A stretch of 44,950 nucleotides of DNA. Source: an uncultured Bacteroidales bacterium. GTDB lineage: Bacteria; Bacteroidota; Bacteroidia; Bacteroidales; Bacteroidaceae. The notes beneath the pieces were generated by a model. That model searched no databases. It saw only the letters and a program-made list of their open reading frames with translations, and had not been told where the DNA came from. A program made the translations under genes and the position numbers. Location of the stretch: the NCBI GenBank assembly GCA_902791675.1, contig CADAWW010000010.1, positions 1 to 44,950 of the forward strand. The letters are read 5' to 3'. This document shows, in pieces, positions 10,640-44,850 of the stretch. Within the stretch, counting starts at the first letter, position 1. Every line of letters starts with the position of its first letter.

Positions 10640-11981
10640 TTAAAACTCTGCGTTCTTGGGAGTGCGGGGGAAGGGAATGACATCGCGGATGTTCTGCATG
10701 CCGGTTACGAAGAGTATCAGACGCTCGAAACCGAGGCCGAAGCCTGCATGAGGACAACTTCCGTACTTGCGGGTATCGAGATACCACCACAGGTGGGTCA
10801 TATCCATCTTGCGACGATCTATCTCGGCCATCAGCTTGTCGTAGCTTGCCTCACGGACAGAACCGCCTATAATCTCGCCGATAGAGGGGAAGAGTACATC
10901 GGTGCCTTGCATGGTAGGACCAGGTGCTACGCAACCTTTGTAACCTATGGAACCGCCTTCGGGGGTTGCAGGGTTCTGCTTCATATAGAATGACTTGATG
11001 GCTGTGGGATAGTCGGTCATGATGACGGGCTTCTTGAAGTGCTCCTCTACGAGGTAGCGTTCGTGCTCAGAAGCTAAGTCGTCGCCCCAGTTGCAGGGGA
11101 ACTCGAACTTCTTGCCGTTCTTGATAGCTTCCTGCAAGATATTGATTCCCTCAGTATAGGGCAGCCGGACGAAGTCTTCCTTCAGGACTCCTTCGAGACG
11201 CTCTATGAGGGTTTTGTCTATCATCTTGTTCAGGAACTCCAGATCGTCCTTGCAGTTCTCCAATGCCCAGCGTACACAGTACTTGATGAAGTCCTCCTCC
11301 AAGTCCATCAACTCTTCCTGATCGAGGAAAGCAACCTCGGGCTCTATCATCCAGAATTCTGCCAGATGGCGTGGGGTATTGCTGTTCTCGGCACGGAAGG
11401 TAGGACCGAAGGTGTAAATGGCGCCCAGTGCAGTTGCTCCTAACTCTCCCTCCAACTGACCGGATACGGTAAGTAGAGGCTGTGATAAGGGGTGTATGGA
11501 AATAGAAGTATCCGTGCTCGTGGAAATAGGTATGGATGGCCATTGCCATATTGTGGCGGATGCGCAGAATGGCACCGAAGGTGTTGGTACGGGGACGCAG
11601 GTGAGCTACGGTGCGGAGGTATTCCCAGCTGGCACCTTTCTTCTGCAGGGGATAAGTGTTGTCGCAGTCACCCAGAATCTCGATGGCTGTGGCCTGAATC
11701 TCGCTGGCCTGACCGGCAGCAGGACTCTCAACCAACTTACCTTCTACACAGAGGCAAGCACCAGTGGTAATACGCTTTACGGTCTCCTCGGGGAAGTTTG
11801 CCTCGTCGCCCACGATCTGAACGTTCTTGATGGTGCTTCCATCGTTCAGGGCAATGAAGAAGATTCCCTTTGAGCCACGCTTGGAGCGTACCCAACCCTT
11901 AACACATATGGAGGCCCCCTCCTCGCTCCCCCTTTGGGGGAGTGCCATATTGAGGACATCTATTATTTTTGTTCTTTTCAT
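10640..11981 (-). pseudogene. asnS: Asparaginyl-tRNA synthetase, interrupted by a deletion and frameshift
   Basis: The N-terminal part (from 11981) reads the anticodon-binding OB fold ([20 protein letters not shown]) up to [12 protein letters not shown]. The C-terminal part is in another frame from about 11473 ([20 protein letters not shown], then [20 protein letters not shown]) to 10640. Between them relatives carry a conserved block starting DCEGAGEMF that belongs to the active site. Here it is absent, so roughly 20-40 codons are missing and the frame is shifted. The joined product would be about 445 residues, against about 466 for the family. The N-terminus also has an in-frame palindromic repeat insert ([10 protein letters not shown]). 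AsnRS charges tRNA-Asn and is normally essential. Either this is a sequence or assembly error, or the cell has another route. It lies downstream of purB and rluB. Confidence 0.85.
11913..11942 (-). repeat. Palindromic repeat element inside asnS
   Basis: Core CTCCCCCTTTGGGGGAG, a 7-bp palindrome with a 3-nt loop, plus a flanking GGCCCCCTCCTCG. It lies in asnS close to the start codon, and its translation [10 protein letters not shown] interrupts the normal N-terminus without changing the frame. It is in inverted orientation to the copy at 12017-12045. Confidence 0.8.
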
Positions 11982-12016
11982 CTTGTTTTCTTTTTATTCA
12001 TATTTCGACAATTCCA

Positions 12017-12045
12017 CTCCCCTAAAGGGGGAGACGGAGGGGGCC
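12017..12045 (+). repeat. Palindromic repeat element between rluB and asnS
   Basis: CTCCCCTAAAGGGGGAG followed by ACGGAGGGGGCC is the same element as at 11913-11942 in the opposite orientation, with one core mismatch. It ends right at the rluB stop codon and fills most of the gap before the asnS start. In the RNA the two copies could pair with each other. Confidence 0.8.
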
Positions 12046-13296
12046 TTATTCAAACGCTCCCATGCGCAACATGTTCACTTCCTGCTCTGTGAGGTAGCGC
12101 CAGTCACCACGGCGGACATTCTTCTTGGTAAGTCCGGCAAAGAATACGCGGTCCAACTTGATTACCTTATAGCCGAGACTCTCGAAAATACGGCGTACGA
12201 TACGGTTACGTCCGCTGTGAATCTCTATGCCTACCTGCTTGCGGTCGGTCTCGCTGGCATACTCGATGGAATCTGCCTTAATCTCGCCATCCTCTAACTG
12301 AATACCATCGGCAATCATGCGCATATCGGCAGCCGTAACATTCTTATTAAGGTACACGTGATAGATCTTCTTCTTCATGTACTGAGGATGGGTAAGCTTG
12401 CTGGCCAACTCACCATCGTTGGTAAGCAGTAGCACACCTGTTGTATTGCGGTCGAGACGGCCAACAGGATAGATACGCTCGCGGCAAGCACCCTTCACCA
12501 AGTCCATAACGGTCTTGCGGTTCTGCGGGTCGTCGCTGGTGGTGACATAGTCCTTGGGCTTGTTCAGGAGGATATAAACCTTTTTCTCTATGCTAACCAA
12601 CTGGTCATGGAACAGCACGGAATCCGAACGCTTAACCTTGGTACCCAGTTCGGTTACAACCTGGCCGTTCACCTTTACTACGCCAGCCTCGATGAAGCTG
12701 TCTGCCTCGCGACGGCTGCATACACCGGCATTGGCCAGGAATTTGTTCAGACGGATGGGTTCATCGGGATCAACGTGAGTCTCCTTGTACTCGATCTGCT
12801 TCTTCATGCTGTACTTGGCGTTGGGATTGTAACCGCCTGTACGTGGACGCATACCGGGTCTTCCACCCTTAGGAGCATAGCCAGAGGTACGAGGACGGTA
12901 GCCCCCTCTGTCTCCCCCTTTGGGGGAGTAACCTTCACCTGCATTATAGCGGGGACGGAAGCCCCCTCTGTCTCCCCCTTTGGGGGAGTAACCTTCACCT
13001 GCGTTATAGCGAGGACGGGGCTGGTAACCTCCTTCGCGTGGCTGACGGGGCTGATAGCCTCCTTCTCCGCCTGCGTTATAGCGAGGACGGGGCTGATAAG
13101 GCCGACTGGTCTGTCCCTCTGAGTTACTGCTGAATGCAGGACGGCTTATACGCGGACGCATTACACGTCCCTGACTGCTATATCTGGGGTTACGATTGTT
13201 ATCACTTCCAAATTGCTGAGGGCGGTAACCGTCGCGGCCTTCACTCTCGCTCTTCTCGGAGAACTTTTCTCTCCAACTTTCATCTTCTGTAATCAT
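12046..13296 (-). CDS. rluB: 23S rRNA pseudouridine synthase (RluB/RsuA family) with a long Arg/Gly-rich N-terminus
   Basis: 416 residues. Residues about 175-235 are the S4 RNA-binding domain (RLNKFLANAGVCSRREADSF). The catalytic domain follows with the signature PVGRLDRNTTGVLLLTNDGE, whose Asp is the nucleophile, and HSGRNRIVRRIFESLGY near the end. The enzyme makes pseudouridine in 23S rRNA. Residues 1-165 are a low-complexity extension rich in Arg, Gly, Tyr and Pro, with repeated RPRYNAGEGYSPKGGDRGG. The part SPKGGDRGG is the translation of the palindromic repeat element, present twice. Such basic extensions occur on Bacteroidetes RluB and may bind RNA. The gene is 38 nt downstream of purB and probably co-transcribed with it. 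Confidence 0.9.
   Translation of the reverse strand: MITEDESWREKFSEKSESEGRDGYRPQQFGSDNNRNPRYSSQGRVMRPRISRPAFSSNSEGQTSRPYQPRPRYNAGGEGGYQPRQPREGGYQPRPRYNAGEGYSPKGGDRGGFRPRYNAGEGYSPKGGDRGGYRPRTSGYAPKGGRPGMRPRTGGYNPNAKYSMKKQIEYKETHVDPDEPIRLNKFLANAGVCSRREADSFIEAGVVKVNGQVVTELGTKVKRSDSVLFHDQLVSIEKKVYILLNKPKDYVTTSDDPQNRKTVMDLVKGACRERIYPVGRLDRNTTGVLLLTNDGELASKLTHPQYMKKKIYHVYLNKNVTAADMRMIADGIQLEDGEIKADSIEYASETDRKQVGIEIHSGRNRIVRRIFESLGYKVIKLDRVFFAGLTKKNVRRGDWRYLTEQEVNMLRMGAFE
12901..13020 (-). repeat. Two 60-bp tandem repeats carrying the palindromic element, inside rluB
   Basis: 12901-12960 and 12961-13020 are nearly identical. Each begins with GCCCCCTCTGTCTCCCCC and continues TTTGGGGGAG, the palindromic element, followed by TAACCTTCACCTGC. 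Each encodes 20 residues including SPKGGDRGG. Further partial copies of the flanking RPRYNAG unit lie upstream in the gene, near 13070-13090. Confidence 0.85.
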
Positions 13297-13334
13297 AGTT
13301 TTTCTTTTTCCTTTCTAAAAGTGTTTTAAAAATG

Positions 13335-14681
13335 TTATATACCAATATATGTATGAGGAGTTATAGCACGTAATTCTTCCTTCACGGATTCACTGACGTT
13401 AAGCTCCTCGATAAAGTTCTTGATAGTGGCCTCGTCGATGCCCTTTCCGGTGCGGGTAAGAGCCTTGAGAGCCTCGTAGGGATGAGGATAGGCCTCGCGG
13501 CGGAGAATGGTCTGGATGGCCTCGGCACATACAGCCCAACAGTTATCCAAGTCGCGGTTTATAGCCTCCTGATTCAATACCAACTTACGCAAGCCCTTAA
13601 GGGTGCTGCTAAGGCTGATGAGCATGTGACCCATGGGTACACCGATGTTACGAAGAACGGTGCTGTCTGTGAGGTCGCGCTGCAAACGGCTTACCGGCAA
13701 CTTCTGACTCAGGTGCAGAAGGATGGCATTGGCAATGCCCAGGTTACCCTCGGAATTCTCGAAATCGATGGGGTTCACCTTATGGGGCATAGCGCTGGAA
13801 CCAACCTCACCAGCCTTTATCTTCTGACGGAAATACTCCATGGAGACATACTGCCAGAAGTCGCGGTCGAGGTCGATAATGATGGTATTGATACGCTTCA
13901 TAGCATCGAAGATGGCACCCAGACAGTCGTAGTTACTAATCTGTGTGGTGTATTCCTCGCGCTCTAAGCCTAATTTCTCTGCAACGAACTTGGCACCGAA
14001 CTGACGCCAGTCGTACTGGGGATATGCCACATGATGGGCATTAAAGTTACCTGTAGCACCGCCGAACTTGGCTGTTATAGGACTCTGGCGTAACATCTCC
14101 AGCTGTCGCTGCAGACGGTACACGAATACCATTATCTCCTTACCTAGACGAGTGGGGCTTGCTGGCTGTCCGTGTGTCTTGGCCAACATGGGAACATCTT
14201 TCCATTCCTCGGCATAAGCAGCCAACTGGTCGATCAGTTCCTGAAGGAGAGGATAGTAAACCTGCTCCAAGGATTCCTTTATGCTCAGGGGCACACTGGT
14301 GTTATTAATATCCTGTGAGGTAAGTCCAAAGTGGATGAATTCCTTATAGGCATCCAATCCGCCAATGGCATCGAACTGCTCCTTGATGAAGTATTCAACG
14401 GCCTTGACGTCGTGATTGGTAACTTTCTCTATGTCTTTTACCCTTTGTGCATCCTTTTCGGAGAAGTCCATATAGATCTTCCTCAGCACCACAAACAGGT
14501 TCTGGGGGAATGATGCCAGTTGGGGTAGGGGTAACTCGCAAAGTGTAATGAAATACTCAATTTCTACTCTTACGCGATAACGGATAAGAGCGAACTCTGA
14601 AAAATAACCAGCTAAGGTTTCTGTTTTACCACGATAGCGGCCGTCAACTGGGGATATGGCCGTTAACAAATTTAATTCCAT
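13335..14681 (-). CDS. purB: Adenylosuccinate lyase
   Basis: 448 residues from the ATG at 14681 (MELNLLTAISPVDGRYR). The frame can be extended two codons to a TTG, which I do not favour. It belongs to the fumarase/aspartase superfamily: the signature GEVGSSAMPHKVNPIDFENS lies at about residue 290, TSQDINNT near 123, and KTHGQPASPTRLGKE near 170. It cleaves adenylosuccinate to AMP and SAICAR to AICAR in purine synthesis, in the cytoplasm. Length and motifs agree with the E. coli-type PurB. It heads a group with rluB and asnS on the same strand and is separated from the tRNA-Val pair by about 50 nt. Confidence 0.95.
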   Translation of the reverse strand: MELNLLTAISPVDGRYRGKTETLAGYFSEFALIRYRVRVEIEYFITLCELPLPQLASFPQNLFVVLRKIYMDFSEKDAQRVKDIEKVTNHDVKAVEYFIKEQFDAIGGLDAYKEFIHFGLTSQDINNTSVPLSIKESLEQVYYPLLQELIDQLAAYAEEWKDVPMLAKTHGQPASPTRLGKEIMVFVYRLQRQLEMLRQSPITAKFGGATGNFNAHHVAYPQYDWRQFGAKFVAEKLGLEREEYTTQISNYDCLGAIFDAMKRINTIIIDLDRDFWQYVSMEYFRQKIKAGEVGSSAMPHKVNPIDFENSEGNLGIANAILLHLSQKLPVSRLQRDLTDSTVLRNIGVPMGHMLISLSSTLKGLRKLVLNQEAINRDLDNCWAVCAEAIQTILRREAYPHPYEALKALTRTGKGIDEATIKNFIEELNVSESVKEELRAITPHTYIGI

Positions 14682-14729
14682 AGCCAAAAAAAACTAATAC
14701 GTGCTTCAAAATATTTTCTTGTGCAAAAG

Positions 14730-14807
14730 TGGTGGGCGTTGACGGATTCGAACCGCCGACCCTCTGCTTGTAAGGCAGATGCTCTGAACCAGCTGAGCTA
14801 AACGCCC
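14730..14807 (-). tRNA. tRNA-Val (anticodon TAC), CCA encoded
   Basis: On the minus strand the cloverleaf is complete: acceptor GGGCGTT/AACGCCC, D-arm GCTC/GAGC, anticodon stem TCTGC/GCAGA with loop CTTACAA, and T-arm with TTCGAAT. The anticodon TAC reads Val codons. The discriminator A is followed by CCA in the DNA. Confidence 0.95.
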
Positions 14808-14837
14808 ATTCTGAAGGTGGCTTGCGGGAGATGTTTG

Positions 14838-14912
14838 TGGGCGTTGACGGATTCGAACCGCCGACCCTCTGCTTGTAAGGCAGATGCTCTGAACCAGCTG
14901 AGCTAAACGCCC
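14838..14912 (-). tRNA. tRNA-Val (anticodon TAC), no CCA encoded
   Basis: Same 75-nt sequence as the copy at 14730-14807, but the discriminator is followed by CAAA-type sequence and not CCA. The two genes are 30 nt apart and very probably come from one transcript, which starts at the promoter at 14943-14974. Confidence 0.95.
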
Positions 14913-14942
14913 GGGCACAAGCCCCCTTCAGGAAATGCGGAG

Positions 14943-14974
14943 CAAAGTTATTACTTTTCTGCGGACTGACAAAA
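14943..14974 (-). promoter_or_regulatory. Bacteroidetes promoter of the tRNA-Val pair
   Basis: On the minus strand TTTTG (14974 to 14970), a 19-nt spacer, then TAACTTTG (14950 to 14943). This is a full match to the consensus. The start would be near 14936, about 25 nt before the first tRNA. Confidence 0.8.
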
Positions 14975-14991
14975 CTTTTCCTTAAATATTT

Positions 14992-16092
14992 TTATTTAGA
15001 TGCGAATCGGCGTGATTGCTCTTCAATCAGTGCGCTGTCCTGGAAGTAGTTAATCTTCATGGCGCGACGAACCTCGTCCATTGTCTGACAGGCAGCCTCA
15101 CGAGCTACTTCACATCCTTTCTTCAGGATATCATATACCTGAGGAATATCTTTTTCGAACTCTGCACGACGCTGACGGATAGGCTCCAAGGTTTCCTGTA
15201 GGACGTTCATCAAAAGTTTCTTGCACTTCATGTCGCCCAAACCGCCACGTGTGTAGTGGTCCTTCATCTCCTGGAGGGTCTGATAATCCGTTGTCATGGC
15301 AGCTACCATCTCGTCTGTTGCAAAAGCATCGAGATAGGTAAAGACGGTATTGCCCTCAAGGTGTCCCGGGTCGTTTACCTGTAGATGGGTGGGGTCGGTG
15401 TACATACTCTTAACCTTCTTGTTTACCTCATCAGCAGAGTCGGAGAGATAGATACAGTTACCAAGACTCTTGCTCATCTTGGCCTTTCCGTCGGTACCGG
15501 GCAGACGCAGACAGGCAGCATTCTCGGGTAACAGGATGTTGGGCTCTATAAGGGTATCTCCATAAATGTTATTGAACTTACGGACAATCTCGCGGCATTG
15601 TTCCAACATGGGTTCCTGATCCTCGCCGGCAGGAACGGTAGTTGCCTTAAACATGGTTATATCTGCAGCCTGAGAGATAGGATAGGTGAAGAATCCTACA
15701 GGTATGCTTTCGCCGTTAAAGCCACGCATCTGAACCTCGGTCTTAACAGTAGGGTTACGTTGCAGACGACTTACGCTAACCATATCCATAAAATAGAAGG
15801 AAAGTTCGCAGAGCTCGGGAATCTGGCTTTGTATAAATAAGGTACTCTTGGCAGGGTCAAGGCCGGCAGCCAGATAATCCAATGCTACCTCTATGACGTT
15901 CTGACGAACTTTCTCGGGGTTCTCGATGTTATCCGTAAGTGCCTGTGCATCGGCTTCGAAAATAAAAATCTTATCGTACAGGCCTGAATTCTGCAGTTCC
16001 ACTCTTCTGCGGAGTGAACCTACGTAATGACCTATGTGAAGCTTTCCGGTTGGGCGGTCGCCCGTAAGAATAATCTTTTCTTTTGGTTCCAT
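14992..16092 (-). CDS. trpS: Tryptophanyl-tRNA synthetase
   Basis: 366 residues, a class I synthetase. The HIGH motif is intact at about residue 18 ([20 protein letters not shown]), and KMSKS near residue 205 ([20 protein letters not shown]) binds ATP. Tryptophan-site features such as the SQIPELCEL segment are present. It charges tRNA-Trp in the cytoplasm. Length is typical. It starts 34 nt after mutL on the same strand, so it may share the upstream operon transcript. Confidence 0.95.
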
Positions 16093-16126
16093 TGTCTTTA
16101 TATGTAATTAATCAAATTCTTTTTTA

Positions 16127-17959
16127 TCAGCGCCCGAACAATTTATCAATCTGAGCATGTTCCAAGACAGAAACGATAATCTTTCCCGTTGGAGTGAGGT
16201 TAGGATTCTGACATCTGAAGAGTTCGCTCAGCAATGACTCCATCTCTTGGTTGCTTAATGCCTGCCCTGTCACAATAGCAGCATTGCGTGCCATTACCAA
16301 AGCTATGCGGTGCTGTAATTCGTTATCTATTCCTGTCTCTTTCTCTTTGAGGATTTCTACCATCTGGTTTAATACCAGTACGGGGTTTGCGCCTTCCAGA
16401 TCGGAAGGTACGCCGTTAATGGAGAAACTGCCGCCGCCCAGCGATTCAATATCGAATCCGAGCGAGCGCAACTCGTCTGTCATATCTTGGAAGAGAACGG
16501 CATCTGAGGGAGCCAACTGCAGTATCTCGGGGAAGAGAAGCCCTTGCGAGGAAGCTTTCTGTCCCTCGATCTGCCGAAGGAACTTTTCGTACAGAATACG
16601 TTCATGGGCTCTGTGCTGGTCAACCATCATCAGTCCCGTCTGTACGGGTGTAAGGATATATTGACCGCGATACTGGAAATGGCTGTTGCTCATTTCCATG
16701 CTATTCTGAGTCTCGTCGGCAAAGATGTCTTCTTTGTCTGTGGATAAATCTTCTATGGGATAATCCCGGGTAGGTTCTGCTTTTGGGATGTTTGCGTAAA
16801 GCTGTTCCCAATCTACGGGTGTCTGCTTCTGGTGTTTTTCTCCTTCGTGTCGGAAGGGATTATAATTGCTGTCTACCTTTATACGAGGTGCATGGACTTC
16901 TGAAACGTTGTTGAAGTCAAAGGCTGGGATATCGGGTCGGCCCTCCACATCAAAATCGATGGTGGGAACAGCATTGAACTTACCCAGGGAATCCTTGATG
17001 GCTGCAACCAGTATCTGCCAGATGGCAGAATCGTTCTCGAACTTTATCTCTGTCTTGGTGGGATGGATATTGACATCTATGTTGGCGGGATCCACCTCGA
17101 AGTAAAGGAAGTAGGGAATCTGTTCCCCCTCGGGGATTAAGTGCGCAAAGGCTTCGAGTACCGCCTTGTGGAAATAAGGATGCCGCATGTAACGACCGTT
17201 CACGAAGAAATACTGGTTGGAATTCTTCTTACGTGCAGCCTCGGGTTTACCCACAAAACCTGTAATGCGTGCAAGGGTGGTATCCACATCTATTGACAGG
17301 AGTTGTTCGTTAAGTTTCTTCCCGAACACATTTACTATGCGCTGCCTAAAATTACAGGCGGGAAGTTTTGTAATTAATGAACCATTATGTGTGAGAGAGA
17401 AACTGACGGTGGGATTCACCAATACGATTCGTTCGAACTCCTGGATGATATTGTTCAGTTCCGTCTGGTTGGATTTCAGGAATTTCCGTCGGGCCGGTAC
17501 ATTGAAGAAGAGGTTACGGACTTCGATATTTGTACCTACAGGGCACGAACAGATTTCCTGATCTGTAACACGGGAGCCCTCGATGGTGAGGTCGGTGCCC
17601 AATTCGCTTTCTATGGTTCTGGTAAGAAGATGAACCTGTGCAACGGCAGCAATGGAAGGAAGAGCTTCGCCCCTGAATCCCATTGTATGCAGCGAGAACA
17701 GGTCTTCTGCTTTCTGTATCTTGGAGGTGGCATGACGCTCAAAGGCCATGCGGGCATCCTGCTCACTCATTCCCTTCCCGTCGTCTATTACCTGGATGGA
17801 TGTCCTGCCTGCATCTACAACAAGTACATCTACCGTTGATGCACCGGCATCAACAGCATTCTCCATCAGCTCCTTGATAACCGATGAGGGTCGTTGAACG
17901 ACTTCACCGGCGGCTATCTGATTGGCGACCGAGTCTGGAAGAAGGTGAATAATGTCCAT
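16127..17959 (-). CDS. mutL: DNA mismatch repair protein MutL
   Basis: 610 residues. The N-terminal GHKL ATPase carries its motifs: ELMENAVDAGAS (about 31-42), DDGKGM (about 58-63) and TMGFRGEALPSIAA (about 90-105). The C-terminal dimerisation domain contains DQHRAHERILYE near residue 440. This has the spacing of the MutL endonuclease motif DQHA-x2-E-x4-E, with Arg where the Ala usually stands. MutL links mismatch recognition by MutS to strand nicking. The gene starts 3 nt after the small membrane protein gene and lies in the envelope-protein operon. Confidence 0.95.
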   Translation of the reverse strand: MDIIHLLPDSVANQIAAGEVVQRPSSVIKELMENAVDAGASTVDVLVVDAGRTSIQVIDDGKGMSEQDARMAFERHATSKIQKAEDLFSLHTMGFRGEALPSIAAVAQVHLLTRTIESELGTDLTIEGSRVTDQEICSCPVGTNIEVRNLFFNVPARRKFLKSNQTELNNIIQEFERIVLVNPTVSFSLTHNGSLITKLPACNFRQRIVNVFGKKLNEQLLSIDVDTTLARITGFVGKPEAARKKNSNQYFFVNGRYMRHPYFHKAVLEAFAHLIPEGEQIPYFLYFEVDPANIDVNIHPTKTEIKFENDSAIWQILVAAIKDSLGKFNAVPTIDFDVEGRPDIPAFDFNNVSEVHAPRIKVDSNYNPFRHEGEKHQKQTPVDWEQLYANIPKAEPTRDYPIEDLSTDKEDIFADETQNSMEMSNSHFQYRGQYILTPVQTGLMMVDQHRAHERILYEKFLRQIEGQKASSQGLLFPEILQLAPSDAVLFQDMTDELRSLGFDIESLGGGSFSINGVPSDLEGANPVLVLNQMVEILKEKETGIDNELQHRIALVMARNAAIVTGQALSNQEMESLLSELFRCQNPNLTPTGKIIVSVLEHAQIDKLFGR

Positions 17960-17962
17960 ATT

Positions 17963-18256: not shown

Positions 18257-18268
18257 ATCCTTATTTAT

Positions 18269-35082: not shown

Positions 35083-35094
35083 AACAGAAATCCC

Positions 35095-37170
35095 ATGAAA
35101 GCAAAAAGAATTATTCTTTGTGCAGCTATTTTAGGCTTGCCCCTAACTCTAAACTCTAAACTCTCAACTCTCAACTCTGAACTCTCAACTCTCAGCGCAC
35201 AGGAGAACATTATTACTGTTAATGCCAAGAAACCGGGCGCACCTATACAACCGACTATGTACGGCATCTTCTTCGAGGATATCAACTACGCTGCTGACGG
35301 CGGTCTCTATGCTGAGCTGGTAAAGAACCGCAGCTTCGAGTTTCCCGACCACTTTGCCGGCTGGGATATCTCAGGGAAGGTGACGCTGAAGGATGACGGT
35401 CCTTTCGCGCGCAACCCGCATTATGTACGTCTTGCTCCTTCAGGACATCGCGACAAGCATACGATGATCGAGAATCACGGCTTCTTCGGAATCGGAGTGA
35501 AGGGTGGCGAGGAATATCGCTTCTCCCTATGGGCACGTGTTCCGGATGGCGGTAATGCCAAATTGTGGATAGATCTTGTGGACAACGCTACGATGGAAGA
35601 AGACCAGAAACTGGGCAACGCAGGTGTTGAAGTCAGCGGCAAGGAATGGAAGAAATATACGGCCACCATCAAGCCCAAGAAGACTTTTGCCAAAGCTCAC
35701 CTTCGTGTGTGGGGAGATGGTAAGGTAACGACAGATGTCGAACATATTAGCCTTTTCCCCGTGAAGACCTACAAGGGGCATGAGAACGGATTACGTATGG
35801 ATGTGGCCCAGACACTCGAGGACTTGCACCCCGGTGTGTTCCGCTTCCCTGGCGGTTGTATCGTCGAGGGAACAGACTTGGCAACCCGTTACCAGTGGAA
35901 GAACACCGTAGGACCTGTCGAGAACCGCCCACTGAACGAGAATCGATGGCACTACACCTTTACCCATAGGTATTTCCCCGACTACTTCCAAAGCTATGGC
36001 CTAGGATTCTTCGAGTATTTCCAACTCTCGGAAGAAATCGGAGCCGAACCATTGCCCGTACTCAATGTGGGAATGGCCTGTCAGTACCAGAATGGCGACG
36101 ATGCACATGCTCCGGCTACCAAGGAAGGCTTGCAGCAGTTTATAGACGACTGCATAGACCTTATCGACTTTGCCAATGGCGACCCTGCCACCAACCAATG
36201 GGCCAAGCTCCGTGCCGATATGGGACATCCTGCCCCCTTCAACCTTAAGTTTCTGGCTATCGGTAACGAACAATGGGAGAAACCCTTCTTCGACCGTCTG
36301 GCCATCATTGCTCCCGAAGTGCGTAAGGTTCATCCCGAAATAAAACTCATCGGCACCAGCGGTCCCAACGCCGAGGACGACCATTTCCGTAACGGTTGGA
36401 AGGCAATGCGCGAACTGAAGGCAGATCTTGTAGATGAACATTTCTACCGCGATATCCAATGGTACAAGAACTCCATGAACCGCTATAGCGACCGCACGTT
36501 CTACACAAAGGATGGTCCGCGTGTCTTTGCCGGCGAATGGGCTTGCCACGACAGGGGCAAGAAATACAACCACGCAGGAGCCAGCATCTACGAGGCCGCC
36601 TTTATGACCAACATCGAGCGCAATGCCGACTTGGTTCACATGGCCACTTACGCACCGCTCTTTGCCCACGTAGAGGGATGGCAATGGCGCCCCGACCTTA
36701 TATGGTACGACAACCTTACTACGGCTCGTACTGCCTCTTACTACGTCCAGCAGCTCTATATGCTCAACCGCGGTACCCATGTCCTGCCAACAACTATACA
36801 GCTCCTCTCTCCCACGGGTGAGAAGTTGGGAGAGGGCCCGAATCCCGTAGGGGTAGGGCAGGATGGTGTATTTGCCAGTGCAGTAATCGATAAGGACAAG
36901 AATGAAATCATTGTGAAGGTAATCAATACCCTTGAGAAGTCCAGCACCACTGGCATTAACATTACGGGTCTGAAGTTCAAGAATGCTCCCGCCACCGCAG
37001 AGGTTATCACCTTGGATTGCAGCAACTACGATGCAGAGAATACACCCGGCAAGCCTGAGGTTGTCAGCCCCAAAAGCAGTACCATAGCCGTTACTGCCAA
37101 CAAAGGCACCCTCATCCTCACCCCCAACATTCCTGCCAAGACCTTCCAGGTATTCAAGGTGAAACTCTAA
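35095..37170 (+). CDS. GH51 alpha-L-arabinofuranosidase, secreted
   Basis: 691 residues. A signal peptide is present but its second half is encoded by seven copies of a heptamer (LTLNSKLSTLNSELSTLS). GH51 features: TMYGIFFEDINYAADGGLYA at the start of the mature protein, a carbohydrate-binding-like insert at about 75-215, RFPGGCIVEG, the acid/base Glu in LAIGNEQWEKPFFDR, and the nucleophile Glu in RVFAGEWACHDRG. The beta-rich C-terminal domain follows. It releases arabinose from plant arabinan or arabinoxylan. Near residue 570 a short insert (LLSPTGEKLGEGP) comes from a palindromic repeat. The signal peptide's cleavage region is SAQEN. Confidence 0.92.
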   Translation: MKAKRIILCAAILGLPLTLNSKLSTLNSELSTLSAQENIITVNAKKPGAPIQPTMYGIFFEDINYAADGGLYAELVKNRSFEFPDHFAGWDISGKVTLKDDGPFARNPHYVRLAPSGHRDKHTMIENHGFFGIGVKGGEEYRFSLWARVPDGGNAKLWIDLVDNATMEEDQKLGNAGVEVSGKEWKKYTATIKPKKTFAKAHLRVWGDGKVTTDVEHISLFPVKTYKGHENGLRMDVAQTLEDLHPGVFRFPGGCIVEGTDLATRYQWKNTVGPVENRPLNENRWHYTFTHRYFPDYFQSYGLGFFEYFQLSEEIGAEPLPVLNVGMACQYQNGDDAHAPATKEGLQQFIDDCIDLIDFANGDPATNQWAKLRADMGHPAPFNLKFLAIGNEQWEKPFFDRLAIIAPEVRKVHPEIKLIGTSGPNAEDDHFRNGWKAMRELKADLVDEHFYRDIQWYKNSMNRYSDRTFYTKDGPRVFAGEWACHDRGKKYNHAGASIYEAAFMTNIERNADLVHMATYAPLFAHVEGWQWRPDLIWYDNLTTARTASYYVQQLYMLNRGTHVLPTTIQLLSPTGEKLGEGPNPVGVGQDGVFASAVIDKDKNEIIVKVINTLEKSSTTGINITGLKFKNAPATAEVITLDCSNYDAENTPGKPEVVSPKSSTIAVTANKGTLILTPNIPAKTFQVFKVKL
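35145..35193 (+). repeat. Heptamer tandem repeat in the GH51 signal peptide
   Basis: Seven units of AACTCTN (AACTCTA twice, then mostly AACTCTC, once AACTCTG) fill 35145-35193. They encode about residues 17-33. A gain or loss of one or two units would shift the reading frame, and three units would keep it. The same heptamer occurs in queA at 39162-39196 and 39913-39940. Confidence 0.9.
36804..36838 (+). repeat. Degenerate palindromic element inside the GH51 gene
   Basis: CTCTCTCCCACGGGTGAGAA followed by GTTGGGAGAGGGCCC. Its parts (CTCCCA, a short loop, GGG-GAG, then GTTGG-AGAGGG-C) follow the order seen in the copy at 44810-44850. It is read through as LLSPTGEKLGEGP between the barrel and the C-terminal domain. 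Confidence 0.55.
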
Positions 37171-37400: not shown

Positions 37401-37497
37401 ATTAATACCCACAATCGATGCTGTTTTTGCGTAATTTAAAAATGTAAAGATTATTCCGGATTTTGATTCTTCACTCTTCATTCTTCACTCTTCACTC

Positions 37498-37529: not shown

Positions 37530-37565
37530 TTCTAACTAGCCAGTAAGTTTTTCTTGGTTATGCAG

Positions 37566-37590
37566 AAAAAACGGCCTGCTAAGCCGTTTT
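37566..37590 (-). terminator. Probable intrinsic terminator (minus strand)
   Basis: AAAACGGC (37568-37575) and GCCGTTTT (37583-37590) form an 8-bp stem with a 7-nt loop. On the minus strand the stem runs into TTTTTT. The nearest gene that could use it is the nudix gene about 840 nt upstream. Confidence 0.55.
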
Positions 37591-37746
37591 GTAATTTGTA
37601 AAGAAAATGGATTCTTTAGAGGGAAGGAGTTGACGAGTTGATTGTTTCGTTGTCGTTATCGTTGACTCAACATTGAACATTTTCAATAACCAATAACCAA
37701 TAACCGATTATAGTTTTCGTTTTCGTCTTCAAAGAAAGACCTCACA

Positions 37747-37873
37747 TATTACAAAAACATATCTTGAGACCCGATGGCTATCGGGATGAGAGGACGGGAG
37801 ATTGGATGGTTTTAACCTCCCTTTAACCTCCCTTTAACCTCCCTTTAACCTCCCTTTAACCTCCCGTCAACCT
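37747..37873 (+). repeat. Interspersed repeat with 11-bp tandem units, left copy
   Basis: It starts TATTACAAAAAC, continues with a CCGATGGCTATCGG hairpin, ACGGGAGATTGG and GGTTTTAACCTCCC, and ends with AACCTCCCTTT repeated every 11 bp at 37814, 37825, 37836, 37847 and 37858. An inverted relative lies at 38019-38132. Before it, 37610-37740 holds only short simple repeats (AATAACC, TCGTT). Confidence 0.8.
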
Positions 37874-38018
37874 TAGGCCACATTGATGCCATCTACGAAT
37901 AAACTTGCAAATATACTATATTTTTCAGAGCTCTCCAAATATTAAGAAACAAACGATTTTTTATTATTTATCCCTTTCGCATTCAATTTTCAGAAGCCAG
38001 AAAATGGGGTAGAGGTCA

Positions 38019-38132
38019 GACGGGAGATTGACGGGAGGTTGACGGGAGGTTAAAACCGCCCAACCTCCCGTTCTCCCGTAGCGATAACCATCGGCCCTTA
38101 CGTCCCATTTTTGTAATATGGGAGGTTAAAAC
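38019..38132 (-). repeat. Interspersed repeat with 11-bp tandem units, right inverted copy
   Basis: On the minus strand this shows the order of the left copy: TATTACAAAAAT, CCGATGGTTATCG, ACGGGAGGTTGG, GGTTTTAACCTCCC, then three 11-mers of AACCTCCCGTC type (38051 to 38019). The tandem part differs from the left copy only at two or three positions per unit. The roughly 145 nt between the copies (37874-38018) is AT-rich without a gene. 38133-38430 holds no supported gene either. Confidence 0.8.
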
Positions 38133-38432
38133 GTGAAGAGTCAATAATTTCCGAGAGGGCGTATCATATCTCTTTACTGCACAGGAACACATTTTGACAT
38201 CTTCGGCAAAGCTAAGAGACGATAAAGGGCCATTTTGGTCACAGGGACGGATGCAATCATCGCCACAATACGCGCCAACTGCTAATTGCCGTATGGCATT
38301 GGAGCCAAGCAAAGCAGTAAAACAGCAAGGGATCAAAGAACCGCCGGCCTCTTCCTCCTTCTAACAACAAAGGTAAGGATTTGGCCGTGATAAAGCAAAT
38401 TCTTCACTGATATATTCTATCAGAGCGCAAAA

Positions 38433-38896
38433 TTAGAGTCCTTTGCCTATCGATGCTTCTATCTCTGGGATAGACCAGAAACGACCGCCATCTGTCTCTT
38501 TACTGGGATGGATGGCGCCGTCGTATGTAGTGTGGAAGGGGAAAACCAGCTCACGTTCGCGGTCGGACTGAAAGACGTAATGGGGTAGGGGCTGAGGCTC
38601 GAAATCGGTAATGCCCAACTCTTCATGCACTTCGCGAAGGAGTGCCTGATGAATGCTCTCGCCCAAATCTACGTGTCCTCCGACGGCTGTGTCCCACTTG
38701 TCGGGCTGGATATCTTTCCAAGCCGGACGTTTCTGAAGGTACAACTCCCCTTGGGAATTAAACACATGAAGGTGTACAACGGGGTGCAGCAACATGCTGC
38801 CGCCATGACACTCGCCTCGGGTGGCGGCTGAAAGGATGTTGCCTTCTTCGTCCACAACGGGGAACATCTCCTGACTGTTATCTTTGCCTTCTGCTA

Positions 38897-38900
<4 letters not shown>
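38433..38900 (-). CDS. NUDIX hydrolase, possibly shortened at the C-terminus
   Basis: 155 residues. The Nudix box is complete at about 74-96: GGHVDLGESIHQALLREVHE followed by ELG, matching G-x5-E-x7-R-E-x2-E-E-x-G. HLHVFNSQGELYLQKRPAWK and DKWDTAVGGHV resemble the IPP-isomerase/YfcD-like group. It would hydrolyse a nucleoside diphosphate linked to some group; the substrate is unknown. It ends at EIEASIGKGL, where relatives I recall continue about 15 residues, so the 3' end may have been cut at the edge of the repeat-rich spacer. Its ATG overlaps the queA stop by 4 nt (ATGA). Confidence 0.85.
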
Positions 38901-40216
<1,316 letters not shown>

Positions 40217-40246
40217 TTTTAAGAATGATGAATGAAGAATATGGGA

Positions 40247-40254
40247 TAAATTTG
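40247..40254 (+). promoter_or_regulatory. -7 promoter element of cutC
   Basis: TAAATTTG matches TAnnTTTG. The start would be near 40261, 16 nt before the ATG at 40277. No strong -33 element. Confidence 0.5.
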
Positions 40255-40276
40255 CAGTCAAAAAAACAAAGAGAGC

Positions 40277-40990
40277 ATGGATTTTAAATTGGAGATCTGT
40301 TGTGCCGACCTGCCCAGTCTGCGTGCTGCTATCGCTGGTGGTGCCCACAGGGTGGAGTTGTGCCAGGCGCTTGATGTGGACGGGCTTACCCCATCAGCCG
40401 GCATGATTGAGCTGGCTGTGAACAGCGGCATTGCTGTTCATGTACTGATTCGTCCGCGTGGCGGGGATTTTGTTTATTCGGAGGATGAGGTGGACTGTAT
40501 GATCTACGACATCCGGATGGCTCGTAAGCTGGGTGCCCAAGGCGTGGTAATAGGTGCGCTAACTCCCAATGGCGACATAGACATCCAGGCTTGCCAGCGT
40601 ATGGTAGAAGCAGCAGGGGACGAGATGCACATTACCTTCCACCGTGCTTTTGACGTCTGCCGTAAGCCCGAAGAAGCATTGATGGAGATTTATTCCTTGG
40701 GCTGTGACCGATTGCTTACCAGCGGACAGGCTAAAAGCGCCGAAGAAGGTATCGGGCTGCTAAGAAAATTGGTGGAAAGAAGTAAGCAGTTTGAGCCAAG
40801 GGAAGGAGGTGGCGTAAGGGGAAGCGATTTCCGCATCATGCCGGGAGCCGGTGTGACGCCCCAGAATGCTGTCCGTATCATAAAAGGAACGGGAGCCACA
40901 GAAATCCATGGCTCCCTTAGAAAGAACGGTCATACAGATGCCGTAATGGTGCATGAGACTATTTCTCGTGTATCATCAGCTGTCGGATGA
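40277..40990 (+). CDS. cutC: CutC family protein (copper homeostasis)
   Basis: 237 residues, a TIM-barrel protein. Family motifs: LEICCADLPSLRAAIAGGAH (about 5-24), RVELCQALDVDGLTPSAGMI, HVLIRPRGGDFVYSEDE, ITFHRAFDV and LLTSGQAKSAEEGI. CutC has been linked to copper tolerance, but its exact activity is not settled. Near residue 176 there is a loop insert (FEPREGGGVRGSD) before RIMPGAGVTPQN that may be a decayed palindromic repeat. The last 32 nt overlap the 3' end of the convergent transglutaminase-like gene. Confidence 0.9.
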   Translation: MDFKLEICCADLPSLRAAIAGGAHRVELCQALDVDGLTPSAGMIELAVNSGIAVHVLIRPRGGDFVYSEDEVDCMIYDIRMARKLGAQGVVIGALTPNGDIDIQACQRMVEAAGDEMHITFHRAFDVCRKPEEALMEIYSLGCDRLLTSGQAKSAEEGIGLLRKLVERSKQFEPREGGGVRGSDFRIMPGAGVTPQNAVRIIKGTGATEIHGSLRKNGHTDAVMVHETISRVSSAVG

Positions 40991-43436
40991 CACTCATAAT
41001 CTGGTCTGCAATTCCTATCGTATATCCTTGTTTGAACCATACCACGCGGTTGAAGGTATCGGCCATCATAAGAATGGGCAATTCCTGACTGCCGTGTGTG
41101 AGTTCCTGAATGTGCATGGCCTCGATGGTCTCGGGGTCGGCTACACCGAAAATGAAGTTATCGGGCAGTTCGTCGAAATCCTTGCGGTGTGACCGGAACG
41201 ACTGGAGCTCTTCCTGTGTGGGGAATAGCATCACAAACAGATGAGGCCACTGAGAGAGGTAGATGTTTGACTCTTCGCACTCATGCAGAATGTGCGAACT
41301 GGGTTCGTGATTGTCGCGAATCAGCGCTACTACATAATAACCTCTGCCCGTACTCTCCAACAAAGTCTTGTGTACGCCCTTGTAGTTGGTGAAATAGTTT
41401 TCGCAGTCGAAGCTGCCTATCACACGCAACTCGTCAGCATTGTCGCGCAACCTGAGAACTTGTTTCTGTGCTGTATTAGCCTTCAGGCCAAAGAACTCCA
41501 GATGTGCCAGTACGCTACCGTCAGCCATACGGGTACCTGAAACCAACAGATACTGTCCTGCATCCATCTGTACACCATTGGCGAAGGTGTCTTTCCATGT
41601 AGCTTCCTCGGGGAACTCCTGCAAGGCGAGGGTTCCGTTCTGAAGGCGTGACAGACTGAATTGCGAATAATAAGAAGGATTCTCCTTGATGGCAAAATCG
41701 GAATAGGCAAGGCTTAGTGTCCCCTGAGGCGCTGTTTCCTGAACGGCCTGGCCAAAGTTCACATCGTGCCATACTGACGCCTCGTCAGCCCACTGCACTT
41801 TACCTGTCACTTCATCGATACGGGCTGCAATACCAGCACTACGACAAGCTGCCACGAAGAAAATGTCGCGACTGTGTGCATCTGTTGTACGATGACGGTA
41901 AACACCCTCGGGACTCATGCAGAGTTTCTGTGGATTATGTGTATTGTCTATGCTGATGCTGTCTGTCACCCATTGGGCAATAGCAGCTGCCTCTATACCG
42001 GCAAAGGCTTTGCTGAGCACTTTGCGGTAGGGAGTTAGCATCTCGTTGCTGATACGTGGAGCCAGCACATACTGCTCCCAAAGGGGAGAGGCGGACGAGG
42101 GCGTGTTATCTGCGGCATCAGTCAGTACCTCCATAGAAACATCGCAAAGGTCTTTCTTCCGTAAGGTAGCGATAACCTCTTTGCCGAGATGGTGAGACTG
42201 GAATGCCTTTATTACCTGCCAGTTCTGACGGGCGTCCTTCAGGTCTTCCTCCTTGCTGAAAGTCTGCTCCATATAAGCGTTCCGCAGACTGTCTTCCCGC
42301 TGCAGACGTTGCTTGTTTGTCCGTATCTGGCTCTCCGAGAGGTTGGGTTTGTATTCCTTGGATTCGGGAGGAACAAGGTCGAGGTCAAATGCACCCGTAA
42401 AGCTGTCGTCCTTATCCACTACCACCGTTACCGTATCTTGCTGACCTACGCTGGCTTTCTCGAAACCGAACAATCCGTCCTTGCTGACCCATATCACGAG
42501 GTCGCCCTTGCCACATCCCAACCAGGTCTGACCGTTGGCATCGGACTGCTTGGAAACCAAAGTATAGAACTCGGCATAGTTATACAGGCGGAAATCCACC
42601 TTTGCATCCTGTAGCGGAGCACCTTCGGCATTAAGTACCTTAACGGTAATGGTATCAGTGACGGCATAGTTGTTGGTTACATTAATCTCGGTGTAACAGT
42701 TGTTGCGGCTTACTACTTCCTCGGGTCCGTCGTAATTGCCAAAGACCTTGGTGTGCATCAGCATTCCTCGGGAAGCGGGCTCGTTGAACCAACCCATATT
42801 CAGGACGGGAAGGGGTTCGCAGGCTCCCAGGAAGTACCAGCGTCCGTTTACCCAAGCCTCTACCCAAGCGTGGTTGTCATCGGTATGCGCCCAGCGTGGG
42901 GTATAGACCTGACGGGCAGGAATGCCTACAGCTCTGAGTGCCGCAACGGTAAACGTGCTTTCCTCGCCGCAACGACCCGTAGCGGAGCGCATGGTAACAA
43001 GGGGAGATTTGGTACGGCCGTCGGAAGGAGCGTATGTGACAAATTCGTGACACCAATGGTTGACCTCCAGAACGGCATCGTACATATTCTTGTCCTTCAC
43101 ACGGTTCTTAAGCTCCTCGTACAAGACGATTCGGGCTGAGTCGAGATTCTCGTTATTGACACGCAGGGGGAGTACAAAATGCTTCCACTCGCGTTCGGGA
43201 ACCTTCTCGCCCCAAGGCATTTCCTGACGGGCTTTTAATGTTGCCCTGACATTTGCCTCCCAGAATTCACGGGGATAATCCACACTATCGGGCAAGGGCA
43301 TACTGGCATAAAGGAAGTCCATTGCCTCCTGCACCTGCTGTTCCGACTGTTTGGTGCACCCTGCTGTAAAAACCATGAGGAGCCCTAATGATAAGGCTCC
43401 CCACAAGGTATGTTTCTGATTTCTCATAAATATCAT
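40959..43436 (-). CDS. Transglutaminase-like lipoprotein
   Basis: 825 residues, or 822 from the second ATG at 43427. An N-terminal lipobox (LLMVFTAGC, Cys at about 27) marks it as a lipoprotein. The transglutaminase-like core lies at about 120-215: the Cys in GRCGEESTFTVAALRAVGIP and the His in DDNHAWVEAWVNGRWYFLGA. A beta-sandwich segment follows (ITVKVLNAEGAPLQDAKVDF), then about 450 residues without an obvious family. A second transglutaminase-like trace is CRSAGIAARIDEVTGKVQWA. Such proteins may act as peptidases or cross-linkers. Its ATG follows directly after the GH125 stop codon, so the two are an operon. Confidence 0.85.
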   Translation of the reverse strand: MIFMRNQKHTLWGALSLGLLMVFTAGCTKQSEQQVQEAMDFLYASMPLPDSVDYPREFWEANVRATLKARQEMPWGEKVPEREWKHFVLPLRVNNENLDSARIVLYEELKNRVKDKNMYDAVLEVNHWCHEFVTYAPSDGRTKSPLVTMRSATGRCGEESTFTVAALRAVGIPARQVYTPRWAHTDDNHAWVEAWVNGRWYFLGACEPLPVLNMGWFNEPASRGMLMHTKVFGNYDGPEEVVSRNNCYTEINVTNNYAVTDTITVKVLNAEGAPLQDAKVDFRLYNYAEFYTLVSKQSDANGQTWLGCGKGDLVIWVSKDGLFGFEKASVGQQDTVTVVVDKDDSFTGAFDLDLVPPESKEYKPNLSESQIRTNKQRLQREDSLRNAYMEQTFSKEEDLKDARQNWQVIKAFQSHHLGKEVIATLRKKDLCDVSMEVLTDAADNTPSSASPLWEQYVLAPRISNEMLTPYRKVLSKAFAGIEAAAIAQWVTDSISIDNTHNPQKLCMSPEGVYRHRTTDAHSRDIFFVAACRSAGIAARIDEVTGKVQWADEASVWHDVNFGQAVQETAPQGTLSLAYSDFAIKENPSYYSQFSLSRLQNGTLALQEFPEEATWKDTFANGVQMDAGQYLLVSGTRMADGSVLAHLEFFGLKANTAQKQVLRLRDNADELRVIGSFDCENYFTNYKGVHKTLLESTGRGYYVVALIRDNHEPSSHILHECEESNIYLSQWPHLFVMLFPTQEELQSFRSHRKDFDELPDNFIFGVADPETIEAMHIQELTHGSQELPILMMADTFNRVVWFKQGYTIGIADQIMSVIRQLMIHEK

Positions 43437-44766
43437 TTACTGAGCGTACATATCAACAATAAGTTCGCCAAACAGTGTGTTGGCCCATGCGAACCAAGAA
43501 CGGGTGAAGTCCTTGGCATCGTCCTTGTTGAAAGACTCGTGCATGAAACCTGTATCGCCGTCGGTCTTCAGAATCTGCTGAACGCACCATTCCTTCTCGG
43601 CACGGTCGTTGGTAGTGAAGGCCTTCATGACCAGACTCATGGGCCAAGGCTTGTTCAATCCGCAATGAGGACCGCCGATACCTTCACCTGCCTTACCCTT
43701 GAAGAAGTAAGGATTATCCTCGCTCCAGACAAACTTACGGGTATTCTGGTAGATGGGGTCATCGATAGACACATCGGTCAGATAAGGCAGACAGAGCAGG
43801 CTGGGCGCATTGGAGTCGTCCATCAGCAGAGCAGAACCATAACCGTCAACCTCGAAGGCATAAATCTTGCCATACTTGGGATGCTCCACAACAGCGTATT
43901 TCTCCAGAGCCTCTTCCACCTGGGTTGCCATACGACGGCAGTCGCTTGCCAGTCCGTATTCCTTATTCACATCGTTCAGGATGATAGCAGCCTTGGGGAA
44001 CCAGATAGGGGAAGATGGTACTGTCGTCAGAGGGACGGAAGGCACTGGCAATCAGTCCGCAAGGCTTACCGGGATGACCGTAACCTCTGTTAGAACGTGT
44101 ATCGTGCAAAGCCTCTGTCTTGCGGGTAAAACGGTAGTTGGTAATGGGACCGTTCCAGTTCTGCTGGTCCTGGAAGACGTGCAGAATCTCGCGGATGGCC
44201 TGTAGCCACTTCTCGTCGAAGATACTGGTGTCGCCTGTCTGCTGCCAGTAGGCATAGGCAAGACGCAAGGGATAGCAGAGCGAGTCAATCTCGTACTTGC
44301 GCTCGTGCAGTTCCTTCTTCATTTTTGTGTTATCAGACTGCCATTCGCCACCGGTAGGACCTATATTGAAGGCGTTGGCGTACGGATCGATAAGGATGCA
44401 GGCCAACTGACGACGGATAACGCCACGGATAAGGTGACGCAGGGGTTCGTCCTGCTTGACATAACGCAGATAGGGCCATACCTGTGCAGCGCTGTCACGC
44501 AGCCACATGGGGTCGATGGCGGTAAGCTTCGATTTGAGGTCGAGAATCTGCTTCTCAACAGCCTCGCTGCGGAAGAGACGCTTCTCGGGAGCAGGACGCA
44601 GGTCCTTGATGGTTGACTGCACAGCCACCTCCTGCTTCTTGGCAGGTTCTGGCATAGCGTAGTAATTGGCGCTGTTTGCCACTATGGGAGCACCCACCAA
44701 CATGGTTAAAAGAAGGAGCCCCTCTCTAACTCCCCCGATGGGGGAGAATTTCTTATTCCTATTCAT
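43437..44766 (-). pseudogene. GH125 exo-alpha-1,6-mannosidase, interrupted by a small deletion and frameshift
   Basis: The first frame (from 44766) carries a signal peptide and the GH125 core: LTAIDPMWLRDSAAQVWPYL, IDPYANAFNIGP, EWQSDNTKMKKELHERKYEI and SAFRPSDDSTIFPYLVP. There it leaves the family pattern and stops at 43963. The rest is in another frame from about 44005 (KAAIILNDVNKEYGLASDCR, then GPHCGLNKPWPMSLVMKAF) to 43437. About ten residues expected between YLVP and KAA are missing, which fits a deletion near 29 nt. GH125 enzymes remove alpha-mannose without a metal. The GH92 gene upstream fits the same pathway. The signal peptide contains an in-frame palindromic repeat (FSPIGGVREG). 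Confidence 0.85.
44718..44746 (-). repeat. Palindromic repeat element in the GH125 signal peptide
   Basis: GCCCCTCTCTAACTCCCCC followed by GATGGGGGAG. The core is a 7-bp palindrome. It encodes SPIGGVREG between MNRNKKF and the hydrophobic core LLLLTMLVGAPIV, so it lengthens the n-region of the signal peptide. Confidence 0.85.
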
Positions 44767-44809
44767 AATTTTCGTGTTGTGGTTTTGGTTTCTAAATAAT
44801 TTTCCCCAC

Positions 44810-44850
44810 CTCCCATTTGGGGGAGGAGGGGTTTGGGGTTGGAGAGGGGC
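44810..44850 (+). repeat. Palindromic repeat element between GH92 and GH125
   Basis: CTCCCATTTGGGGGAG followed by GAGGGGTTTGGGG and TTGGAGAGGGGC. It is a longer form of the element with a G-rich tail, ending 1 nt from the GH92 stop codon. It is inverted relative to the copy at 44718-44746, like the pair around the asnS start. Confidence 0.75.

Follow-up and report, generated by a model that had tools for sequence, protein, structure and literature searches.

The window analysed here, a 44,950-nt stretch (G000:C10:1-44950), belongs to the genome of an uncultured Bacteroidales bacterium (2.99 Mb in 303 contigs, 79% complete; hereafter the own genome). It carries several copies of a G/C-rich repeat of about 31 nt, which lie in or beside protein-coding genes, among them those for asparaginyl-tRNA synthetase (AsnRS), RluB, QueA and a glycosidase of family GH125. 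A preliminary description of the window had taken this repeat for a palindromic family inserted in frame inside proteins. The copies and their host genes are listed below; E-values of copies are those of a covariance model, and the triplex rule and scan are explained further on (ORF, open reading frame).

11912-11943, minus strand: element copy read in sense and located in the first 25 codons of AsnRS (model E 8.5e-9; conforms to the triplex rule)
12016-12046, plus strand: intergenic partner copy between the RluB stop and the AsnRS start, divergent from the copy at 11912 with tails outward (model; triplex scan)
12900-12929, minus strand: element copy in the N-terminal repeat region of RluB, YSPKGGDRGG, part of a 60-nt tandem unit (model; triplex scan)
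12959-12989, minus strand: second RluB copy, tandem duplicate of the 60-nt unit (model; triplex scan)
36807-36839, plus strand: weak relative in an alpha-L-arabinofuranosidase-type gene (Pfam ASD1_dom, Alpha-L-AF_C), SPTGEKLGEGP (model E 0.0078; no match in the window triplex scan)
39960-39990, plus strand: element copy within QueA, read antisense (KPLSGSPYRGREE; model; triplex scan)
44717-44747, minus strand: element copy at the N-terminus of the GH125 ORF, signal-peptide-like by eye (model E 1.4e-9; conforms to the triplex rule)
44809-44850, plus strand: inverted partner of the copy at 44717, diverged and located upstream of the GH125 start (model E 0.0016; no match in the window triplex scan)
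12046-13296, minus strand: host gene RluB, named in the preliminary description, with a repetitive N-terminus followed by S4 and pseudouridine synthase domains (Pfam PseudoU_synth_2 E 1.3e-21, S4 E 5.5e-13)
10640-11981, minus strand: host gene AsnRS, named in the preliminary description and by eye (first ORF: Pfam tRNA_anti-codon E 3.7e-12, tRNA-synt_2 E 1.6e-4)
38897-40216, minus strand: host gene QueA (Pfam Queuosine_synth E 1.6e-93)
43963-44766, minus strand: 5' part of the host GH125 ORF (Pfam Glyco_hydro_125 E 2.3e-63)

The repeat family is real. Five exact matches to the core CTCCCCC-N(0-8)-GGGGGAG were counted in the window (starts at 11926, 12912, 12972, 39960 and 44730), whereas 0.00 are expected from 100 dinucleotide shuffles, and the copy at 12017 has this core with one base altered (CTCCCCTAAAGGGGGAG). 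An unfiltered search with the covariance model found six strong copies (E 1.4e-9 to 6.3e-8) and 15 matches up to E 1, seven of which are reverse-strand shadows of the palindromes. Rfam at its gathering threshold yielded only tRNAs in the whole window. All copies listed in the preliminary description were recovered by the model, although several of the positions given there mark the end of a block instead of the start of a core. Its statement that at least five copies are read through as protein was confirmed, as the copies at 11912, 12900, 12959, 39960 and 44717 are open in the frame of their hosts. The copies at 12017 and 44810, by contrast, are not located within genes: The first adjoins the RluB stop codon and shares one base with it, and the second is situated upstream of the GH125 start. 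Each of the two window pairs, 11912/12016 and 44717/44809, flanks a start codon. RluB matches are present in 33 of 37 genomes. The GH125 ORF ends early and covers only profile positions 36-228 of 414.

The palindrome of the preliminary description accounts for the hairpin part of the element; a mirrored tail, which makes the whole an intrastrand-triplex motif, had been missed. The element comprises a 5' pyrimidine arm, a loop, a purine arm, a turn of mostly 3-6 nt and a second, mirrored purine arm. Its commonest form reads 5' to 3' CTCCCC(C)-loop-(G)GGGGAG-turn-GAG(A)GGGG(G)C. The purine arm is mirrored by the last one, which does not represent a reverse complement of the pyrimidine arm. This was analysed in 88 copies of the own genome, i.e. 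79 full-length matches with E<=0.021, from which three reverse-strand shadows had been removed, and nine weaker ones; other matches above E 0.021, e.g. on C132, C215 and C39, were left out. As a mirror, the tail fits at a mean of 0.97 of positions, compared to 0.79 each for a direct repeat and for antiparallel pairing with the pyrimidine arm. The mirror fit beats pairing with the pyrimidine arm in 71 of the 88 copies, equals it in 14 and is worse in three. When the tails were permuted among the copies, which were selected by the model and whose kinship this test ignores, none of 2000 trials attained the observed fit. Matched changes in all three arms were found at C37:1772 (CTTCCCCT/AGGGGAAG/GAAGGGGT) and at C208:3766 (CTCCCCCT/AGGGGGAG/GAGGGGGT), the latter with a T opposite an A of the third arm.

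The strongest single evidence is a blind class II scan, because its rule was not trained on these sequences. The rule, which follows PMC4666352, requires arms of at least 6 nt, loops of 1-6 nt and G-GC, A-AT and T-AT triads, with one bad triad permitted from 8 nt. On both strands of the window, it detected six places (11914, 12017, 12901, 12961, 39960 and 44719), all of them copies of the preliminary description. No match was obtained in 10 Markov sequences, and two E. coli TMECO triplex sequences from PMC4666352 were recognised. All six strong window copies and 65 of the 88 own-genome copies conform to the rule. Probably, this Bacteroidales repeat belongs to the G/C-rich class II intrastrand-triplex motifs (PIT/TM) and has been inserted in frame. 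In the 8 nt downstream of the 88 copies, T is more frequent than any other base at each position (29-42 of 88), whereas A and T are more balanced upstream.

The family is distributed far beyond the window. A whole-genome model search at E<=0.01 revealed at least 73 matches in the own genome, so that the element is clearly not absent elsewhere in this genome, a possibility the preliminary description had still allowed. All model counts are lower bounds; in the own genome, 150 of 911 first-look candidates were scored. The full pattern occurs 15 times there compared to 0 times for a reversed control. At least 31 of 40 genomes of the genus have one model match or more, with counts from 0 to at least 119 and the highest numbers in G015 (at least 119), G020 (at least 106) and G027 (at least 85). 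In the order, at least six of 119 genomes, the own one included, contain a match at E<=0.001 with stricter filters. Eight metagenome-assembled genomes with RluB 95-99% identical (L279-L286) are titled Bacteroidaceae, Bacteroidales or Prevotella, and five of their record titles name sheep, goat or yak.

Comparison with relatives revealed insertions into conserved genes. For AsnRS, as the preliminary description had assumed an insert, relatives both with and without the element were found. In an alignment of the own sequence with 15 of 80 loci found, the own genome, L279, L282 and L283 carry the element (4 of 16), and 12 sequences do not. All 21 more distant orthologues recovered from the loci of 29 relatives are devoid of it. 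The carriers have a net gain of 18 nt at the site, with a further in-frame loss of 3 nt in L283. A target-site duplication is not visible at this site, which also lost sequence. The partner copy at 12016 is present in varied forms in the own genome, L279, L282 and L283 and in a degenerate form in L285/L286; none was seen in the other 10 sequences of the alignment. In QueA, 28 of 29 orthologues cover the site, and 25 of them lack a comparable stretch. This supports the insert postulated before, although other residues, up to about a dozen, occupy this place in some of them. L169 and L177 contain similar Pro-rich inserts at the same point, and L170 an unrelated long one. The alignment of QueA with structure 1yy3 breaks at the element, where 55 query residues face 17.

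The clearest length differences were found in G015 by comparison with solved structures. In PheT, residues 73-104 face one residue (net 31), in ClpB residues 410-447 face six (net 32) and in ValRS residues 389-452 face 24 (net 40). Each of these spans holds both copies of a divergent pair, or nearly so. Similar Pro-rich peptides are located at or near the sites of CysQ, RsmE and ArsP in L153, L155 and L209 (protein level only). RluB was a different case: The two insertions proposed in the preliminary description are both part of one 60-nt tandem unit (95% identical) in a variable repetitive region, and L283 has one such segment compared to two in the window, which rules out two independent insertions.

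The longest-ORF rule used to assign copies to genes trusts the first start codon and may pick the wrong strand, as it did for the leucyl-tRNA synthetase (LeuRS) gene on C9. By this rule, ORFs of at least 140 aa contain 49 of the 88 own copies, whereas 13 merely overlap an ORF and 23 touch none; among the first 79 copies, 44 are inside ORFs. When five doubtful in-ORF copies were set aside (two on C9, C153:4226, C223 and C51), 44 were left. Manual reading placed 47 copies in genes, i.e. these 44, the AsnRS copy, which the rule had scored intergenic because the frame is broken, and the two copies in LeuRS; N-terminal cases hinge on the true start. In G015, 39 of 61 classified copies are in ORFs; they come from 40 stretches around the best matches, not from all 119, and one of 62 rows was dropped as a palindromic shadow. 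The 16 of 28 loci in ORFs of other same-genus relatives probably include shadow frames and were not used as evidence. In other genera, the same mechanical classification gave mostly intergenic rows.

In the own genome, pairs inside or between Pfam matches are found in an AcrB-type transporter, an ArsP permease, an NtrC-type regulator, an inositol-phosphatase (CysQ-like) and a laminin-G/PKD protein. Single copies of this kind occur in RsmE, QueA, a histidine-kinase ATPase domain, saccharopine dehydrogenase, a glycosyltransferase and an FeoAB linker, and LeuRS contains two. The copy is within the Pfam match itself in RsmE, the CysQ-like protein, ArsP, the AcrB-type transporter, the histidine kinase and saccharopine dehydrogenase. 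N-terminal segments that resemble signal peptides by eye are broken by copies in an M16 peptidase, a TonB receptor, an OEP protein and GH125. Each copy adds roughly ten amino acids.

All six frames are open in 67 of 88 copies compared to 9.1% of random 31-mers from the window and 35.2% of base-shuffled elements. One sense frame, which reads P-x-GG-x-x-x-G, is used in 26 of 39 copies in G015 and in 16 of 44 in the own genome. Compared to the expectation of one-sixth, this amounts to binomial values of 5e-12 and 0.0013, respectively, with copies in the same gene not being independent. Translation of the peptides and their filtering by the protein would lead one to expect such a bias. The host genes are probably translated across the insert, and the inserts are probably near-neutral.

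Several observations on individual copies can be added. In L427 (G015), GcpE (IspG) and DUF559 domains are joined in one open frame across a divergent element pair, possibly a gene fusion made by the repeat. Upstream of the pair in the AcrB-type ORF of L051, the protein reads LTPTLSEREGA, which resembles yet another triplex-type copy that has diverged. Repeats of a second type enter proteins, too: TTGAGAG 7-nt tandem repeats are read in frame (SQLSTLNSQL) twice in QueA (39146-39207 and 39897-39958) and once in a glycosidase N-terminus (35145-35200).

Some results weigh against an in-frame triplex motif or complicate it. The net gain of 18 nt in AsnRS for an element of about 30 nt means that sequence was replaced, too. 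Three-frame translation showed that the insert-bearing AsnRS frame is broken downstream of the insert in the own assembly. Relatives L280-L285 have uninterrupted frames, among them the carriers L282 and L283 (490 and 492 codons); for L279, the evidence is limited to the N-terminal marker, which lies in a frame of 489 codons. Because the frames of L282 and L283 are uninterrupted, the own break is considered separate from the insert, and it could be an assembly error or decay. The sites in CysQ, RsmE and ArsP are length-variable loops also in relatives without the element, and the variable repeat region of RluB does not reveal a clean insertion. The triplex rule fails for 23 of the 88 own-genome copies, and the TMECO consensus CCCTCNCCC-N3-6-GGGNGAGGG-N3-GGGNGAGGG was found in 0 of 88. 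Since the model was built from 18 motif-like sequences, the arm statistics on model-found copies are biased, whereas the window scan is not. The full pattern was detected in 18 of 61 genomes (own included), and the reversed control pattern totals three matches in the same 61. Inside the cell, the strand may fold as a triplex. The TMECO triplex was reported to be very stable in vitro, but footprinting gave no signal for it in vivo, and in E. coli MG1655 this motif is described as always intergenic (PMC4666352).

Pairs of copies have a uniform orientation. Among own copies with E<=0.021, 11 of 11 opposite-strand neighbours within 200 nt are tail-out. In the 88-copy set with its hand-added weak partners, 18 of 18 are tail-out and none is tail-in, a figure biased by the fact that eight of the nine weaker copies were chosen for adjoining another copy. 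The same orientation was found for 11 of 11 opposite-strand neighbours among the best-scoring 124 matches listed for relatives. Direct neighbours number two in the own set and six among the best-scoring matches listed for relatives; in G020 (C80:9969-10095), four copies are arranged in direct tandem with a 32-nt period, unlike the divergent pairs. Altogether, 36 of the 88 own copies are in tail-out pairs (eight of them weak and chosen as neighbours) and 52 in no divergent pair. The pairs are 77-152 nt long. A conserved spacer, as expected from one mobile unit, was rejected, as spacers are mostly unrelated save one full match (C126/C136) and two short ones of 10 and 14 nt. The rule known from E. 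coli, by which two turn types are combined in a pair, is not followed throughout (turns read by eye); the turns on C141 are equal. L285 and L286 keep the degenerate intergenic copy while the AsnRS copy is absent. Tail-out pairs, unrelated spacers and these two genomes are therefore read as stepwise local formation of an inverted partner.

It is proposed that the element spreads as non-coding repetitive DNA, in the form of single copies and of divergent pairs whose second purine arms lie on the outside. An inverted partner might be seeded beside an existing copy when template switching or fold-back copying takes place at a triplex-prone strand that has stalled. Since most copies contain no stop in any of the six frames and encode glycine/proline-rich peptides, those arriving in coding sequences with a length change divisible by three would survive as short peptides wherever loops, termini and linkers tolerate them; P-x-GG-x-x-x-G would be the favoured reading. 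A spread associated with replication and not driven by a transposase is put forward tentatively. Competing with it is a REP/REPIN-like element or a miniature inverted-repeat transposable element (MITE) moved in trans by a transposase, with divergent pairs as the mobile form and singles as remnants. This is possible, though on the unlikely side. The consistent tail-out pairs of 77-152 nt could represent terminal inverted repeats of about 31 bp, identical copies occupy sites with different flanks, and the pair C126/C136 has the same spacer at two loci. In addition, match numbers are patchy within one genus (0 to at least 119), and G013 combines a strong Y1_Tnp match (E 2.2e-18) with at least 50 element matches. 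However, Y1_Tnp (PF01797) is not matched in the own genome (79% complete), nor in G015 and G020 with their at least 119 and 106 element matches, whereas G022 has a strong Y1_Tnp and no element match; these four genomes are 62-86% complete. The search for a REP with its Y1 transposase comprised the own genome and 36 relatives (G027 was outside) and the Y1 family only, and no tracking was found. The GTAG/CGTC tags of REP sequences (PMC3733652) are rare: For each tag and flank, just 0-2 of 88 copies have one at a distance of up to 8 nt. The pairs mostly have unrelated spacers, divergent pairs do not include 52 of the 88 copies, and the AsnRS site shows no target duplication. Since the Y1 transposase does not follow copy number, replication-associated copying is preferred over an unknown transposase.

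Two further explanations are much less probable. Inverted copies that flank start regions and recombine could act as invertible promoters in phase variation, and the window pairs 11912/12016 and 44717/44809 have the position required. Other pairs lie wholly in coding sequences (AcrB-type, ArsP, CysQ-like and NtrC-type proteins; ValRS, PheT and ClpB in G015). An inversion there would change the protein, and for this reason the idea, which is very improbable, was set aside; AsnRS relatives with both copies align the same way, although no search was aimed at inverted forms. Even slighter is the chance that ordinary hairpin or terminator DNA and hypervariable loops mimic a mobile family. Several host sites are indeed length-variable loops, but a stereotyped 31-nt sequence with a mirrored tail recurs at unrelated sites, net 31-40 residues are added in conserved cores, and chance matches were found neither in window shuffles nor in the reversed control of the own genome nor in Markov sequences. 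The copy census already contradicts this view. Replication-associated copying can be extended to a broader hypothesis, which is more doubtful than either mode of spread: Intrastrand-triplex repeats might be actively spreading selfish DNA whose own folding drives copying without a transposase. They would be a recurrent source of peptides in the genus, including divergent pairs of 31-40 residues in aminoacyl-tRNA synthetases and ClpB, and protein tolerance would select for openness in six frames and the glycine-rich reading.

Other repeats in the window include two 105-nt arms (37739-38126) that are 77% complementary and separated by 178 nt; one of them contains tandem repeats of the 11-nt unit TTTAACCTCCC. 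Furthermore, 69-nt tandem repeats (23 residues) are located at 6134-6892 within a long minus-strand ORF (3326-7003), and two identical tRNA genes, whose starts are 105 nt apart, at 14732-14912.

Neither the function nor the mode of spread of bacterial triplex motifs has been settled so far, and those reported from E. coli are intergenic (PMC4666352). Copies in coding DNA change this situation, as orthologues and the codon frame make it possible to date and polarise each insertion, so that mode of spread, selection by the protein and relevance of triplex formation become testable. In the literature searched, largely open-access and top-ranked papers, reports were found neither on triplex motifs in frame inside proteins nor on such a family in Prevotella relatives. 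The assumption of the preliminary description that Prevotella has no described equivalent thus agrees with the top-ranked papers, which does not disprove its existence. With the repeat, protein-coding palindromes would extend beyond Rickettsia and Wolbachia to gut bacteria and to usually essential enzymes.

Work of Hoyne et al. on bacterial triplex motifs reportedly dates from about 2000. Their PIT elements, as cited in PMC4666352, and TMECO are the closest counterparts in structure. For TMECO, 3610 copies in 262 proteobacterial genomes and five inverted pairs in E. coli were reported, the pairs combining two turn types; an association with mobile elements was not found, and a link with genome instability was described (Holder et al., 2015; PMC4666352). 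Prevotella or Bacteroid is not mentioned in the main text of this paper, whose authors' triplex database of 5246 genomes and plasmids may list Bacteroidota triplexes. PIT/TMECO and the repeat share the class II G/C-rich arrangement, multiple copies of about 30-37 nt, singles beside close inverted pairs, uneven copy numbers between relatives and the lack of an identified mobile element. By contrast, the repeat has another sequence and shorter arms, resides in Bacteroidales and often inside genes, and not all of its pairs combine two turn types.

Rickettsia palindromic elements, which the preliminary description had invoked, are fused in frame (Delihas, 2007, PMC2229807; MITE review of 2024, PMC10969869) and 105-146 nt long (PMC2229807). 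The likeness holds for the outcome, a family read through as protein in many unrelated conserved genes, and the pair length of 77-152 nt is close to theirs. By description, the two are set apart by the sequence class, by the host phylum and by a basic unit of 31 nt that is also found singly. Protein-coding palindromes are reported from Wolbachia as well. REP sequences are associated with RAYT, an IS200-like Y1 transposase, and form inverted pairs (BIME/REPIN). Short palindromic units in inverted pairs and high copy number are common to them and the repeat, which differs in having no tracking Y1 transposase, no GTAG/CGTC tag and about half of the examined copies in genes. The enterobacterial MITEs RU-1/ERIC and RU-2 (127 and about 168 bp) are also reported to form in-frame intragenic fusions; they are larger, and the sections of PMC2229807 on them do not mention a mirrored third arm. 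The family is, therefore, best called a variant of intrastrand-triplex repeats that works like protein-coding palindromes, with the protein-coding habit as its unusual trait.

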